A stretch of DNA of 64,000 nucleotides from NCBI RefSeq assembly GCF_007005445.1, contig NZ_CP041387.1:4293501-4357500 (forward strand), read 5' to 3'. The position numbers and the translations under genes were made by a program. This DNA comes from Rhodopseudomonas palustris (GTDB lineage Bacteria; Pseudomonadota; Alphaproteobacteria; Rhizobiales; Xanthobacteraceae). Shown here one piece after another: positions 17,099-20,430 of the stretch. The notes under the pieces are model-generated. The model ran no database searches. It was given only the letters and a program-made list of their open reading frames with translations, and was not told the origin of the DNA. Each line of letters starts with the position of its first letter. Position 1 is the first letter of the stretch.

Positions 17099-17980
17099 AT
17101 GGAAATCCGCCATCTCCGCTACTTCGCCGCCGTGGCGCGGCACCTGAATTTCACCGCGGCCGCCGACAGCCTCGGCGTTGCCCAGCCGCCGCTCAGCCAG
17201 CAGATCAGGGATCTGGAAGCCGAAATCGGCACCCCGCTGTTCGAGCGGACGACGCGCCGCGTCGCGCTGACCCGCGCCGGTGAGGATTTTCTGAAACAGG
17301 CGCTCGCGATTCTGGAGCGAGCCGAAACCGCCGTGCAGCGCGCCCGCTCGATCGGCGCCGGCACCGCCGGCATTCTCAATGTCGGGCTGACCGGGTCAGT
17401 GCTGACCGGCCCGCTCGGACGGGCGATCCAGCAGTTTGCGCTCAACTATCCGAACGTCGATCTGCGCATCCACGAAATGTCGCCCGACCGACAGATCGCG
17501 GCGCTGAAATCCGGCCAGACCGATGTGAGCTTCCTGCGCTGTCCGCCGCAGGATGCCGAGATCGCCAGCGAACTGGCGTGGCGGGAATCGGTCCGGCTGG
17601 TGCTGCCGAAAGGTCATCCGCTGGCGGCCAGGAAAGTGACGCTGGCGGATCTCCGGAACGAGAGCTTCGTGTTTCTGCGGCTCGAGGACTCGCTGTTTGC
17701 GAAGTACCTGTGGCAGTGCTGTTTCGAGGCCGGCTACGCGCCGCGCGTCACCCATCAGACGATCGAGTCGACGTCGCTGACGAGCCTGGTCGCCGCGGGT
17801 CTCGGCATCGCCATCATCCCGGAATTCGTCAGCAAGCTGGCGCACCCCGACGTCGTGTATCGGCCGATTGCGGGGCAGCCGATTTCGGCCGATGTTCATG
17901 CGCTGTCGACGGGCGCCAACAACCCGCTGGCGCATCAGTTCATCACCCTGGTGCAGACGCTGTCCGGCAAGGAGACCTGA
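17099..17980 (+). CDS. LysR-family transcriptional regulator
   Basis: A 293-residue LysR protein. The N-terminal winged helix-turn-helix reads MEIRHLRYFAAVARHLNFTAAADSLGVAQPPLSQQIRDLEAEIG. The periplasmic-binding-like effector domain follows from about residue 90 (GILNVGLTGSV, FLRCPP, VAAGLGIAIIPEF). ATG 17099 is chosen because the family starts exactly at MEIRHLRYF; note that GAGG abuts this ATG with no spacing, so translation initiation is unusual. Divergent placement from dctA-allE-allA makes it the likely regulator of that operon. Confidence 0.85.
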   Translation: MEIRHLRYFAAVARHLNFTAAADSLGVAQPPLSQQIRDLEAEIGTPLFERTTRRVALTRAGEDFLKQALAILERAETAVQRARSIGAGTAGILNVGLTGSVLTGPLGRAIQQFALNYPNVDLRIHEMSPDRQIAALKSGQTDVSFLRCPPQDAEIASELAWRESVRLVLPKGHPLAARKVTLADLRNESFVFLRLEDSLFAKYLWQCCFEAGYAPRVTHQTIESTSLTSLVAAGLGIAIIPEFVSKLAHPDVVYRPIAGQPISADVHALSTGANNPLAHQFITLVQTLSGKET

Positions 17981-18588
17981 TGACAGACCACTGGCAGAAC
18001 GTTTACGCCACCAAGGGCGAGCAGGACGTATCGTGGTTCCAGGATACGCCGACGATCTCGCTCGACCTGATCGCAGCGCTGTCGTTGCCGCCGGAAGCGG
18101 CGATCCTCGATGTCGGCGGCGGTGCGTCGCGGCTGGTCGATCATCTGCTCGATCTCGGCCGCCGCGACCTGACGGTGCTCGACCTGTCCGAGGCCGCGCT
18201 CGCGACCACGCGTGACCGGCTCGGCCCGCGTGCCGCAGCAATCAGATGGATCGTTGCGGACGTCACCCGATGGACGCCGGAGCGCAGCTACGCGGTGTGG
18301 CACGACCGCGCCGCCTTCCACTTTCTCACCGCTGAGGCCGATCGCGCGGCCTACCGAGACCGGCTGCTCCGCGCGGTGGCGCCGGATGGCTATGCGGTCG
18401 TCGGCACCTTCGCGTTCGACGGCCCCGAGCGTTGCAGCGGCCTGCCCGTGGCGCGCTACGACGCCGACGGTCTGCAAAGTCAGTTTGCGCCGGAGTTCGA
18501 GATGACCGACAGCCGCCGCGACATTCATGCAACGCCGTGGGGCGCCGAACAGCGTTTTCAGTTCGCGACGTTTCGGCGCAGAAACTGA
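17980..18588 (+). CDS. Class I SAM-dependent methyltransferase
   Basis: A 202-residue methyltransferase. It starts MTDHWQNVYATKGEQDVSWFQ and has motif I AAILDVGGGASRLVDHLLD, the second acidic motif LTVLDLSEAALATTRDRLG, IVADVTRW, a characteristic VWHDRAAFHFLT segment, and RLLRAVAPDGYAVVGTFAFDGPERCSGLPVARYD. Family members of this type act on small molecules, but the substrate is unknown. Its ATG overlaps the LysR stop by one base (TGATG), so the two are translationally coupled. The GGAG in the LysR tail is its ribosome-binding site. Confidence 0.85.
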   Translation: MTDHWQNVYATKGEQDVSWFQDTPTISLDLIAALSLPPEAAILDVGGGASRLVDHLLDLGRRDLTVLDLSEAALATTRDRLGPRAAAIRWIVADVTRWTPERSYAVWHDRAAFHFLTAEADRAAYRDRLLRAVAPDGYAVVGTFAFDGPERCSGLPVARYDADGLQSQFAPEFEMTDSRRDIHATPWGAEQRFQFATFRRRN

Positions 18589-18692
18589 TTGCCAGTCGAT
18601 GGAAATATAGCCGGAGGCCCGCCGACATAGCCGGCAGGCCCCACGACCATCGCTGGACTCGCGTGCGATCCGTCGCTTTCCTTGCCCGACGA

Positions 18693-18794
18693 TCAGCCGA
18701 GCATCGCGTACGGCACCAGCGGGGCGAGCGTCATCAGCAGCGCACCGCCGATCGCAGCAGCTTCCATCCCGTTCAACTTCCGAAACATCGACAT
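18693..18794 (-). CDS. 33-residue single-pass membrane peptide
   Basis: A short gene encoding MSMFRKLNGMEAAAIGGALL followed by MTLAPLVPYAMLG. A positively charged N-terminus (Arg5, Lys6) leads into a continuous hydrophobic segment long enough for one membrane helix. A GGGAGG sits 8 bases before ATG 18794. The second ATG two codons on is less well spaced. On the same strand, 31 bases further upstream, is a TGATCC-N17-GTAAAC promoter of the RpoE (ECF11) kind, placing the transcript start about 25 bases before the ATG. It is divergent from rpoE-chrR. I do not recognise the peptide. Confidence 0.65.
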   Translation of the reverse strand: MSMFRKLNGMEAAAIGGALLMTLAPLVPYAMLG

Positions 18795-18825
18795 CACCAG
18801 ACCTCCCGTTGGCTGTTAGCACGCT

Positions 18826-18854
18826 GTTTACGACGCACCGGACGCGTCGGATCA
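18826..18854 (-). promoter_or_regulatory. RpoE-like promoter for the 33-residue peptide gene
   Basis: On the minus strand, TGATCC (18854-18849) is followed after exactly 17 bases by GTAAAC (18831-18826). TGATCC is the published -35 element of the Rhodobacter sphaeroides RpoE regulon, with a TAAGA-like -10. The implied start lies about 25 bases from the peptide ATG. Confidence 0.55.
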
Positions 18855-18933
18855 CACCCGCATCATCACAGCCGCGTGATTCGCCATCGACCTGCTGCGC
18901 AAATTGCCGCAAGGCATTTCTGCGGCGACGATG

Positions 18934-18962
18934 TGATCCAAATGGTCGGCTGGTTCGTATCA
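18934..18962 (+). promoter_or_regulatory. RpoE-like promoter for rpoE-chrR
   Basis: TGATCC (18934-18939) is followed after 17 bases by GTATCA (18957-18962), pointing toward rpoE. It has the same spacing as the facing promoter at 18826-18854. It implies an autoregulated rpoE operon with a 5' leader of roughly 215 bases. The -10 match is weaker than the -35 match. Confidence 0.5.
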
Positions 18963-19183
18963 GACAAAATGCAATCGATCCGATCGCGCTTTGGCTCGTC
19001 ATGATCCTCCGCACACCCGACTCAGTCCCCAACTGCGACTACCTGATTACTACTCGCGCGCATGTGAGCGCGACAGATGGCGTGCTGCGGATCATGAGGT
19101 CGCGCGCTAGGCTGCGCGGCTCGGAGTGCGTGCATCACGGCGATGCGCCGGATCGATACTCGCCCGGACACGGAGCGGTCGTC

Positions 19184-19771
19184 ATGGATCAACTGCGCGA
19201 CGGTCCACCTCCGCCGTCGGCGGAGATGTCGGACTGTATTGTCCGCATCGCGGCCGCGCAGGACCGTGCCGCGTTCGAGACTCTGTTCCGACACTTCGCG
19301 CCGCGGCTGAAATCGTACTTTGCCCGGCGCTGCGGCGATCCGGTGCTGGCCGAAGAGATCACCCAGGAGACATTGGTCTCGGTCTGGCGCAACGCTGCGC
19401 AGTTCGATCCGGCAAAGGCGTCGGCCTCGACCTGGATCTTCACCATCGCGCGCAATCTCGGGATCGACCGGCTGCGGCAGGCGAAGCGGCCGGGTTTCGA
19501 CCCGCACGATCCGGCATTTGTGCCCGATGAAGAGGAGCCGCCCGACCGCAGGCTGGAGCGCACCGAGACCGAGCAACGCGTGCGCGAGGTGATGGAGACG
19601 TTGTCGTCCAACGAGAAGAGCGTACTGATGCTGTCGTTCTACGAAAACCAATCCCACGGCCAGATCGCCAAACAGCTCGGCCTGCCGGTCGGCACGGTAA
19701 AGTCGCGGATCCGGCTCGCCTTCGGCAAGCTGCGGGCGGCGCTGGAGCTGCCGGCGGGAGACCTGCGATGA
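19184..19771 (+). CDS. rpoE: ECF sigma factor, RpoE of the RpoE-ChrR type
   Basis: A 195-residue group IV sigma factor. Region 2 carries FETLFRHFAPRLKSYFARRCGDPVLAEEITQETLVSVWRNAAQFDPAKASASTWIFTIARNLGIDRLRQAKR. Region 4 has VMETLSSNEKSVLMLSFYENQSHGQIAKQLGLPVGTVKSRIRLAFGKLR. It directs transcription of singlet-oxygen response genes in phototrophic alphaproteobacteria when released from ChrR. GGAG at 19172-19175 sets ATG 19184. The stop overlaps the chrR start by four bases. An open frame continues upstream, but that part has no sigma homology. Confidence 0.9.
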   Translation: MDQLRDGPPPPSAEMSDCIVRIAAAQDRAAFETLFRHFAPRLKSYFARRCGDPVLAEEITQETLVSVWRNAAQFDPAKASASTWIFTIARNLGIDRLRQAKRPGFDPHDPAFVPDEEEPPDRRLERTETEQRVREVMETLSSNEKSVLMLSFYENQSHGQIAKQLGLPVGTVKSRIRLAFGKLRAALELPAGDLR

Positions 19772-20430
19772 CGGTCCGCCATCACATCAGCGACGATCTG
19801 CTGCTGAGCTACGCCGCCGGCACGCTGGACGAAGCCTCGAGCCTGCTGGTCGCTACCCATCTGGCGCTGTGTCCGCATTGCCGCATCCGAGCCGCGGCCG
19901 CCGATGCGCTCGGCGGACAGATGCTCGATGCGCTGCCGGCCGCGGAGGTGACGCCTGACCTGTGGCGAAACGTAGTGGCACGGACCCAGACCGAGCCGGA
20001 ATTGGCCTCGGCCATGCCCGCATCTGCGCTGCGGCCTCGCTCCGACATCGTGATTCCCGAGCCGCTGCGCAGCTATCTCGGTACCGATCTGGCCGGCTTG
20101 CGCTGGACTCGGCTGGCGCCGTGGGTCCAGCAGATCAGCATCGATATACCGGGCTGCGGCCCTCGCGCCCGAATGCTGCGGTTCGAGGCCGGCACGCGGG
20201 TGCTGGAGCACGGCCATTCCGGGCGCGAGCTGACGCTGGTGCTGCACGGAACGCTGTGCGACGGCACGGCGGTGATGCGCCGCGGCGACGTCGCGGAAAC
20301 CGACGAGCGTACCGAGCATCAACCCCAGGCCGGCCCGGACGGCGACTGCATCTGCCTCGCCGTCACCGACGCCCCGCTGCGATTCAAGAGCAGGCTCGCC
20401 CGGCTGTTGCAGCCCTGGTTCGGGATCTAG
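19768..20430 (+). CDS. chrR: ChrR-family zinc anti-sigma factor
   Basis: A 220-residue anti-sigma factor with two domains. The N-terminal zinc anti-sigma domain has His6, His31, Cys35 and Cys38 in HLALCPHC, the same numbering known for R. sphaeroides ChrR. The C-terminal cupin carries His148, His150, Glu154 and His184. These correspond to ChrR His141, His143, Glu147 and His177 with a constant shift of seven. In the model system the N-terminal domain holds RpoE and the cupin is needed for release by singlet oxygen. Overlap with rpoE (ATGA) indicates coupled synthesis. Confidence 0.92.
   Translation: MTVRHHISDDLLLSYAAGTLDEASSLLVATHLALCPHCRIRAAAADALGGQMLDALPAAEVTPDLWRNVVARTQTEPELASAMPASALRPRSDIVIPEPLRSYLGTDLAGLRWTRLAPWVQQISIDIPGCGPRARMLRFEAGTRVLEHGHSGRELTLVLHGTLCDGTAVMRRGDVAETDERTEHQPQAGPDGDCICLAVTDAPLRFKSRLARLLQPWFGI

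Follow-up and report, generated by a model that had tools for sequence, protein, structure and literature searches.

The window analysed in the present study is a 64,000-nucleotide stretch of the Rhodopseudomonas palustris genome (contig NZ_CP041387.1) that carries the extracytoplasmic function (ECF) sigma factor gene rpoE, the anti-sigma factor gene chrR and, on the opposite strand beside them, a 33-codon gene. We propose, with a probability of about 0.6, that at this locus Rhodopseudomonas has its own version of the singlet-oxygen module ECF11 (sigmaE-ChrR): the divergent sigmaE promoter would drive expression of a membrane protein of 33 residues where several relatives have a UfaD-type (furan-fatty-acid) operon. 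Most probably, this pared-down module has the peptide as its main conserved output, which would act on a specific partner. The gene, the selection on it, both promoters, the co-occurrence with ChrR and the helix prediction were obtained from sequence. The peptide was found in 10 of 16 genomes of the genus, this one included, with identities of 76-100%, and these ten loci are the genus loci referred to below. The central features of the window are:

18693 to 18794, minus strand: gene of 33 codons whose product is predicted to be a single-helix membrane protein (MSMFRKLNGMEAAAIGGALLMTLAPLVPYAMLG), based on frame conservation, selection and structure prediction
18802 to 18807, minus strand: Shine-Dalgarno-like GGGAGG, separated from the ATG by 7 bases
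18826 to 18854, minus strand: promoter of ECF11 type in front of the peptide gene, TGATCC-N17-GTAAAC, kept in all ten loci
18934 to 18962, plus strand: ECF11-type promoter toward rpoE-chrR, TGATCC-N17-GTATCA, present in 10 of 10 loci
19184 to 19771, plus strand: rpoE, encoding the ECF sigma factor; the solved structure nearest in sequence is 2q1z_A (RpoE, ECF SigE; E 4.5e-33)
19768 to 20430, plus strand: chrR, encoding the anti-sigma factor, which scores 264.9 bits on TIGR02451 (cut-off 124.5); its nearest solved relative is 2z2s_B (E 1.1e-44)

The 33-codon gene and its selection

Both the small gene and its GGGAGG (18807-18802) had been pointed out in a first-pass annotation made from the letters of the window, and both were present. 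Relatives were scanned for a broken frame, and the ten loci had no indels, no internal stops, and ATG and stop codons at equal positions. A GTG lies in frame immediately 5' of the ATG in this genome; the ATG itself (18794) is the sole start kept in all ten. Purine-rich GGGAGG, AGGAG, AGGAGG or GCGAGG occurs at about the same position in the other loci. Of the 34 columns at each codon position, 10, 5 and 21 were variable at positions 1, 2 and 3, respectively, and comparison of this genome with the nine other loci gave proportions of nonsynonymous (pN) and synonymous (pS) differences of 0.014-0.151 and 0.226-0.420. The synonymous share of changes was 0.600, compared with 0.244 ± 0.069 in column shuffles, none of 5000 of which reached the observed value. 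Judged by these substitution patterns, the frame is a real gene under protein-level selection.

The best 19-residue Kyte-Doolittle mean of the peptide was 1.72. AlphaFold2, given an alignment of 13 rows of which two were the window's own protein, modelled one helix spanning residues 3-31 with a mean predicted local distance difference test score (pLDDT) of 87.4 and a predicted template modelling score (pTM) of 0.43. The product is accordingly described here as a predicted single-helix membrane protein, in agreement with the small membrane peptide of the first-pass annotation.

In 5.8 billion proteins the peptide had 12 matching entries, including that of the window, every one of them 33 residues long. 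The segment LMTLAPLVPYA, residues M10 and E11 and the final glycine were invariant in all 12. The copy in genome G001, which lies outside these entries, has I in place of L at residue 23, leaving the exact core in nine of the ten genus loci. Five of the 12 entries are named 'hypothetical protein': BJ123_10416 of R. thermotolerans, BJ122_105168 of R. faecalis and three from JGI. Some annotation pipelines therefore do call the gene; the earlier expectation that it would be missed by normal gene calling is correct only in part, and the gene has not been wholly overlooked.

A scan of genome contigs located the peptide at six loci, all titled Rhodopseudomonas. Among 391 genomes of the family, a sample of a larger group, there were 14 matches, comprising ten strong ones, all within the genus, and four weak ones (E 0.003-0.009) in frames of 80-600 residues that were judged to be noise and rejected as a wider family. 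Similarly, among 61 relatives the strong matches were the ten genus genomes, and 11 weak matches (E 0.10-0.83) were discarded as noise. No Pfam or NCBIfam model matched the peptide at E values up to 1. Among named records in the data searched so far, the peptide thus appears restricted to Rhodopseudomonas.

Divergent ECF11-type promoters

Both promoter-like sites had been pointed out beforehand, and their coordinates and 17-base spacing proved exact. They had also been described as facing each other, which is incorrect: the two are divergent, back to back, the minus-strand site reading left into the peptide gene and the plus-strand site right into rpoE-chrR. The peptide and both promoters were retained next to rpoE-chrR at every genus locus, with 76-97 bases between the paired TGATCC boxes, in a region that is otherwise divergent and rich in indels.

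Several lines of comparison tie these sites to the RpoE regulon, as the first-pass annotation had suggested. According to the accessible part of one report, the RpoE-dependent Pos19 promoter of R. sphaeroides is TGATCC(N15)GCGTA, which has the same spacing as the sites here (PMC5036791). RpoE matched PF04542 and PF04545 (Sigma70 regions 2 and 4), and ChrR matched Cupin_7 and zf-HC2, in each case above cut-off; ChrR fell below the narrower NCBIfam equivalog NF051881 (131.7 versus a cut-off of 300). The sigma and anti-sigma factors match SigE and ChrR of R. sphaeroides, as in the structural database hits listed above, and by sequence the locus has the sigma factor, the ChrR and the promoter of an ECF11 sigmaE-ChrR module.

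The pattern TGATCC-N16-18-GTA occurs twice in the window versus 0.51 expected, a count reached in 7 of 100 shuffles. By itself this is mildly unusual, and conservation is the real test. Across the 5.04-Mb single-contig genome the same pattern has 59 matches. Eight sites have the form TGATCC-N16-CGTA (N17 with CGTA), and the only ones outside coding-like frames are the two at this locus. Each of the six others falls within a frame whose codon-position G+C is coding-like; the L095 site lies right at the beginning of its frame. Codon-position G+C was applied only to these six; the N17 sites away from the locus (19 of 21) and two N16 sites were judged by open frames alone, a weak criterion in G+C-rich DNA. 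The tighter pattern TGATCC-N16-CGTAWV has three matches in this genome, two of them at this locus, and several other genomes of the genus have one to three additional matches each. No site was found in L190 (G008) under the pattern scanned. Taken together, the full-consensus sigmaE regulon of this genome looks tiny.

A near-identical TGATCC-N17-GTATC match recurs in three genus genomes, at L138 (G015:C41), L120 (G004:C25) and L114 (G000:C1:2931566); the L114 copy, which is that of the present genome, lies within coding-like frames on both strands. At L085 and L086, which belong to genomes with two ChrR copies each, the ChrR match is preceded, at a distance of only about 120-135 bp, by a divergent TGATCC pair. 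These are possibly orphan ChrR proteins under ECF11-type promoters, since that distance is too short for an intervening sigma factor gene.

Co-occurrence of the peptide and ChrR

ChrR was present in 10 of the 16 genus genomes, precisely those with the peptide. In a tree of UfaD-type proteins the ChrR-less genomes did not form one group, which requires at least three changes, two of them forced by well-supported branches. The tree covers 14 of the 16 genomes (G001, which had no match, and G007 were omitted). The peptide and ChrR were probably lost, or gained, jointly more than once; this is suggestive only, because a gene tree stands in for the species tree.

All six named loci carry the peptide, rpoE and chrR together. 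The LysR regulator, methyltransferase, GltP-like transporter and permease of the window are kept beside the trio at L030 and L032, and the permease only at L031. At L033 and L034 the surrounding 5 kb or so contained none of the five window neighbours tested, and none was seen at L035, where the sequence stops about 1.1 kb past the peptide and one side is not judgeable. The class I methyltransferase gene adjoining the peptide (17980-18588) is strain-variable: four of the 16 genus genomes have a match with an E value no higher than 1e-20.

We give next to no credence to a chance open frame below a chance promoter. Thirty-three codons are few and the promoter count in the window is reached by some shuffles, but the intact frame, the selection, the conserved promoters, the database entries and the joint retention of the trio all argue against it.

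Predicted transcript

A strong hairpin follows the gene:

18606 to 18651, minus strand: G+C-rich hairpin, likely a terminator, starting 41 bases past the peptide stop

A comparable strong hairpin lies 3' of the stop in all ten loci, and its energy was matched by none of 30 shuffles in each of the ten stretches. A T run directly after the hairpin was seen in only a few of them. Because of this hairpin, and given an assumed start near 18820, the sequence suggests a short single-gene mRNA of about 215 nt.

Such a transcript resembles Pos19 (RSs0019), an RpoE-dependent coding small RNA of R. sphaeroides. In the part of the source available, Pos19 is 219 nt long and shares with the present gene the promoter type and spacing, predicted size, small frame, terminator-like hairpin end and lineage restriction (PMC5036791). 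It is improbable, however, that base-pairing and not the peptide does the work here. Selection acts on the amino acids, which argues against RNA as the sole function, and both the flanks and the stretch beyond the stop codon are divergent with many indels. The predicted RNA fold is also ordinary (z -1.27, with 20 of 200 shuffles folding equally well), and no Rfam family reached its cut-off. In Pos19, as that source describes it, the RNA does the work; here the protein is under selection and the gene abuts rpoE-chrR (PMC5036791).

The peptide is small and hydrophobic and its gene has a stress-type promoter, features it would share with a membrane-active peptide that depolarises the membrane and slows the cell. 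Stress-induced hydrophobic peptides encoded by type I toxin-antitoxin loci depolarise the membrane in this manner. We consider such a role very improbable at this locus: conservation of the second half of the peptide goes beyond hydrophobicity to residue identity, as would suit a particular partner. In scans that cover known types only, Rfam gave no antisense RNA here and the stretch 18500-19300 contained no sigma-70-like promoter.

The divergent slot in relatives and the UfaD-type operon

ChrR was searched for in 198 genomes of the family, 70 of which matched, and the DNA around the best 30 of these 70 was examined, including 21 loci from outside the genus. Among these 21, a TGATCC-N17-GTA site lay upstream of rpoE-chrR or chrR in 19, and an adjacent TGATCC-N16/17-GTA site was present on the opposite strand as well in 17. 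Sixteen wider stretches were also inspected, eight with a divergent pair and eight with none. In five of the eight with a pair, the first divergent gene encodes an oxidoreductase with the motif GISGLSAAWLL; the open reading frame listing did not show the gene in the other three. For the GISGLSAAWLL protein of L158 the Pfam match is Amino_oxidase, and the proteins encoded after it are a DUF1365 and a CMAS (cyclopropane synthase-like) protein.

In the present genome these three families occur in the same order at a distant locus (L175), where the UfaD-type gene (G000:C1:1845561-1846865) is followed by the DUF1365 and CMAS proteins. The first divergent gene beside rpoE-chrR is the 33-residue frame and not a UfaD-type amine oxidase. 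We take the Amino_oxidase, DUF1365 and CMAS genes to be probable ufaD, ufaO and ufaM on the basis of size, order and a paper on R. palustris; in strain CGA009, according to the portion of that paper available, they are RPA2569-2571 and furan fatty acids are produced during aerobic growth (PMC7380195). A UfaD-type gene was found in 15 of 16 genus genomes, including all six that lack ChrR (the G007 copy has one internal stop). In the 500 bp upstream of it on the gene strand, no TGATCC was present at 14 of 14 assessable genus loci, a count that leaves out L172 of G007, which is cut by a contig end. Because the gene is so widely present yet without TGATCC upstream, the furan-fatty-acid pathway looks uncoupled from sigmaE in Rhodopseudomonas, with the peptide occupying the slot. 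In G001 (L018), which has the peptide and ChrR, no UfaD-type protein was matched at E values of 1e-50 or lower. Ahead of the UfaD-type gene, the block CTTGAC ... CTTACAAAGATTTCATC is conserved in most aligned genus loci (L166-L180) and looks like a promoter of a non-TGATCC kind.

The closest comparison is the R. sphaeroides RSP_1091-1087 operon (ufaD-ufaO), which, in the accessible part of the report, likewise lies beside rpoE-chrR, each operon having its own RpoE-dependent promoter (PMC3818230). The products described there include furan-fatty-acid enzymes (PMC3818230), in contrast to the 33-residue membrane protein here, where the amine oxidase, DUF1365 and CMAS set lies elsewhere without this promoter.

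An explanation that we rank second, and regard as unlikely, is that the peptide is a feedback part of the sigmaE-ChrR switch, taking over the role of the divergent ufaD-ufaO genes of R. sphaeroides by altering either the turnover of ChrR, for which membrane proteases of the DegS/RseP kind are one conceivable route, or the release of sigmaE. The peptide does sit in the slot that UfaD-type genes hold in those five divergent-pair stretches, the Rhodopseudomonas UfaD-type genes have no TGATCC box in the 500 bp upstream at the assessable loci, and within the genus only ChrR-bearing genomes have the peptide. Conversely, UfaD-type genes persist in nearly all genus genomes and so may still act on ChrR, and RSP_1090-dependent ChrR breakdown in R. 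sphaeroides is, in the text available, independent of new protein synthesis (PMC3818230). No direct link between the peptide and ChrR was found.

A conserved palindrome upstream of the peptide promoter

One further conserved element lies between the two promoters:

18866 to 18879, minus strand: palindrome TCACGCGGCTGTGA, exactly 11 bp upstream of the -35 element of the peptide promoter in 10 of 10 loci

Its consensus is TCACG[CT]G[GC]CTGTGA. The pattern was derived from these loci and its presence in them is not independent evidence; the 11-base gap, which is constant though the gap bases vary, is. The palindrome may be where a second regulator binds. The 16 genus genomes contain 15 matches, ten at this locus and five elsewhere. 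Two of the latter precede fabA by about 205 bp, in sister genomes only, G014 (L185 1238-1251) and G009 (L186 1223-1236), the G009 copy also being covered by a long frame; 13 other fabA upstream regions had no palindrome. These two matches may point to a connection with the synthesis of unsaturated fatty acids, or be due to chance. Of the remaining three, two lie within coding-like frames and one (G011:C57) outside.

Proposed function and comparison with known small membrane proteins

For the proposal that the peptide is the main sigmaE-driven output of the locus, we infer transcription by sigmaE, membrane insertion, partner binding and a benefit under stress. Singlet oxygen or organic peroxide would inactivate ChrR and free sigmaE, which would then transcribe rpoE-chrR and, from the back-to-back promoter, the short hairpin-ended mRNA of the single gene. 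The peptide would insert into the inner membrane, the basic N-terminus lying on the inner side, and its near-invariant second half (LMTLAPLVPYA) would dock on a specific membrane partner and alter it during photo-oxidative stress. Candidate partners are a pigment complex, a respiratory complex or the machinery that removes ChrR. Specific docking is favoured over a general disturbance of the membrane because the second half is kept in identity and not just in hydrophobicity.

MgrB, as far as the available source describes it, is similar in being a small membrane protein apparently in the regulon of the regulator that it adjoins; it acts on a sensor kinase, and the likeness is not known to extend to sequence. 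The light-harvesting complex 2 (LH2) gamma polypeptide of R. palustris is also small and reported only from Rhodopseudomonas. That polypeptide, in the part of the report available, has a mass of about 10 kDa, EYKGHSGHPLIKQEG-like repeats and a fold that is extended and not helical (PMC9618040), from which the peptide differs. LH2 gamma and other solved photosystem subunits were rejected as its identity, there being no PDB match and the LH2 gamma repeat being unlike the peptide.

Several observations weigh against the proposed function. Six of the 16 genus genomes do without the module altogether. Targets of sigmaE with imperfect promoters are possible, and 'chief output' may therefore overstate the role of the peptide. 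The palindrome suggests a second regulator that the proposal leaves unexplained. The single peptide sequence had no PDB match at E values up to 10, and thus no solved relative, and a profile search of the PDB gave three matches (E 0.38-1.5), to a peptide transporter and integrin beta-3, neither of which was accepted as a relative. By titles and the starts of abstracts, the open-licence literature apparently holds no paper describing the peptide, which is weak evidence of absence.

The first-pass interpretation is therefore partly upheld. A real small gene tied by its promoter to rpoE-chrR stands; the facing orientation does not, the escape from gene calling does so only in part, and the protection of membrane or pigment complexes received no direct support. 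As a tentative extension, the ECF11 regulon of Rhodopseudomonas might consist of sigmaE, ChrR and one 33-residue membrane protein, which would replace the furan-fatty-acid enzymes as the sigmaE-driven partner of ChrR and either control ChrR turnover or directly protect a membrane complex.

The sigmaE-ChrR response is usually explained through enzymes of membrane repair and remodelling. Members of the genus that keep the switch also keep one other full-consensus target, the 33-residue protein, which bears on how ChrR is handled once ufa-type genes no longer have the promoter. A nameless 'hypothetical protein' would now be tied to a defined stress, and offers a very small, testable answer to what this response must achieve in these phototrophs.
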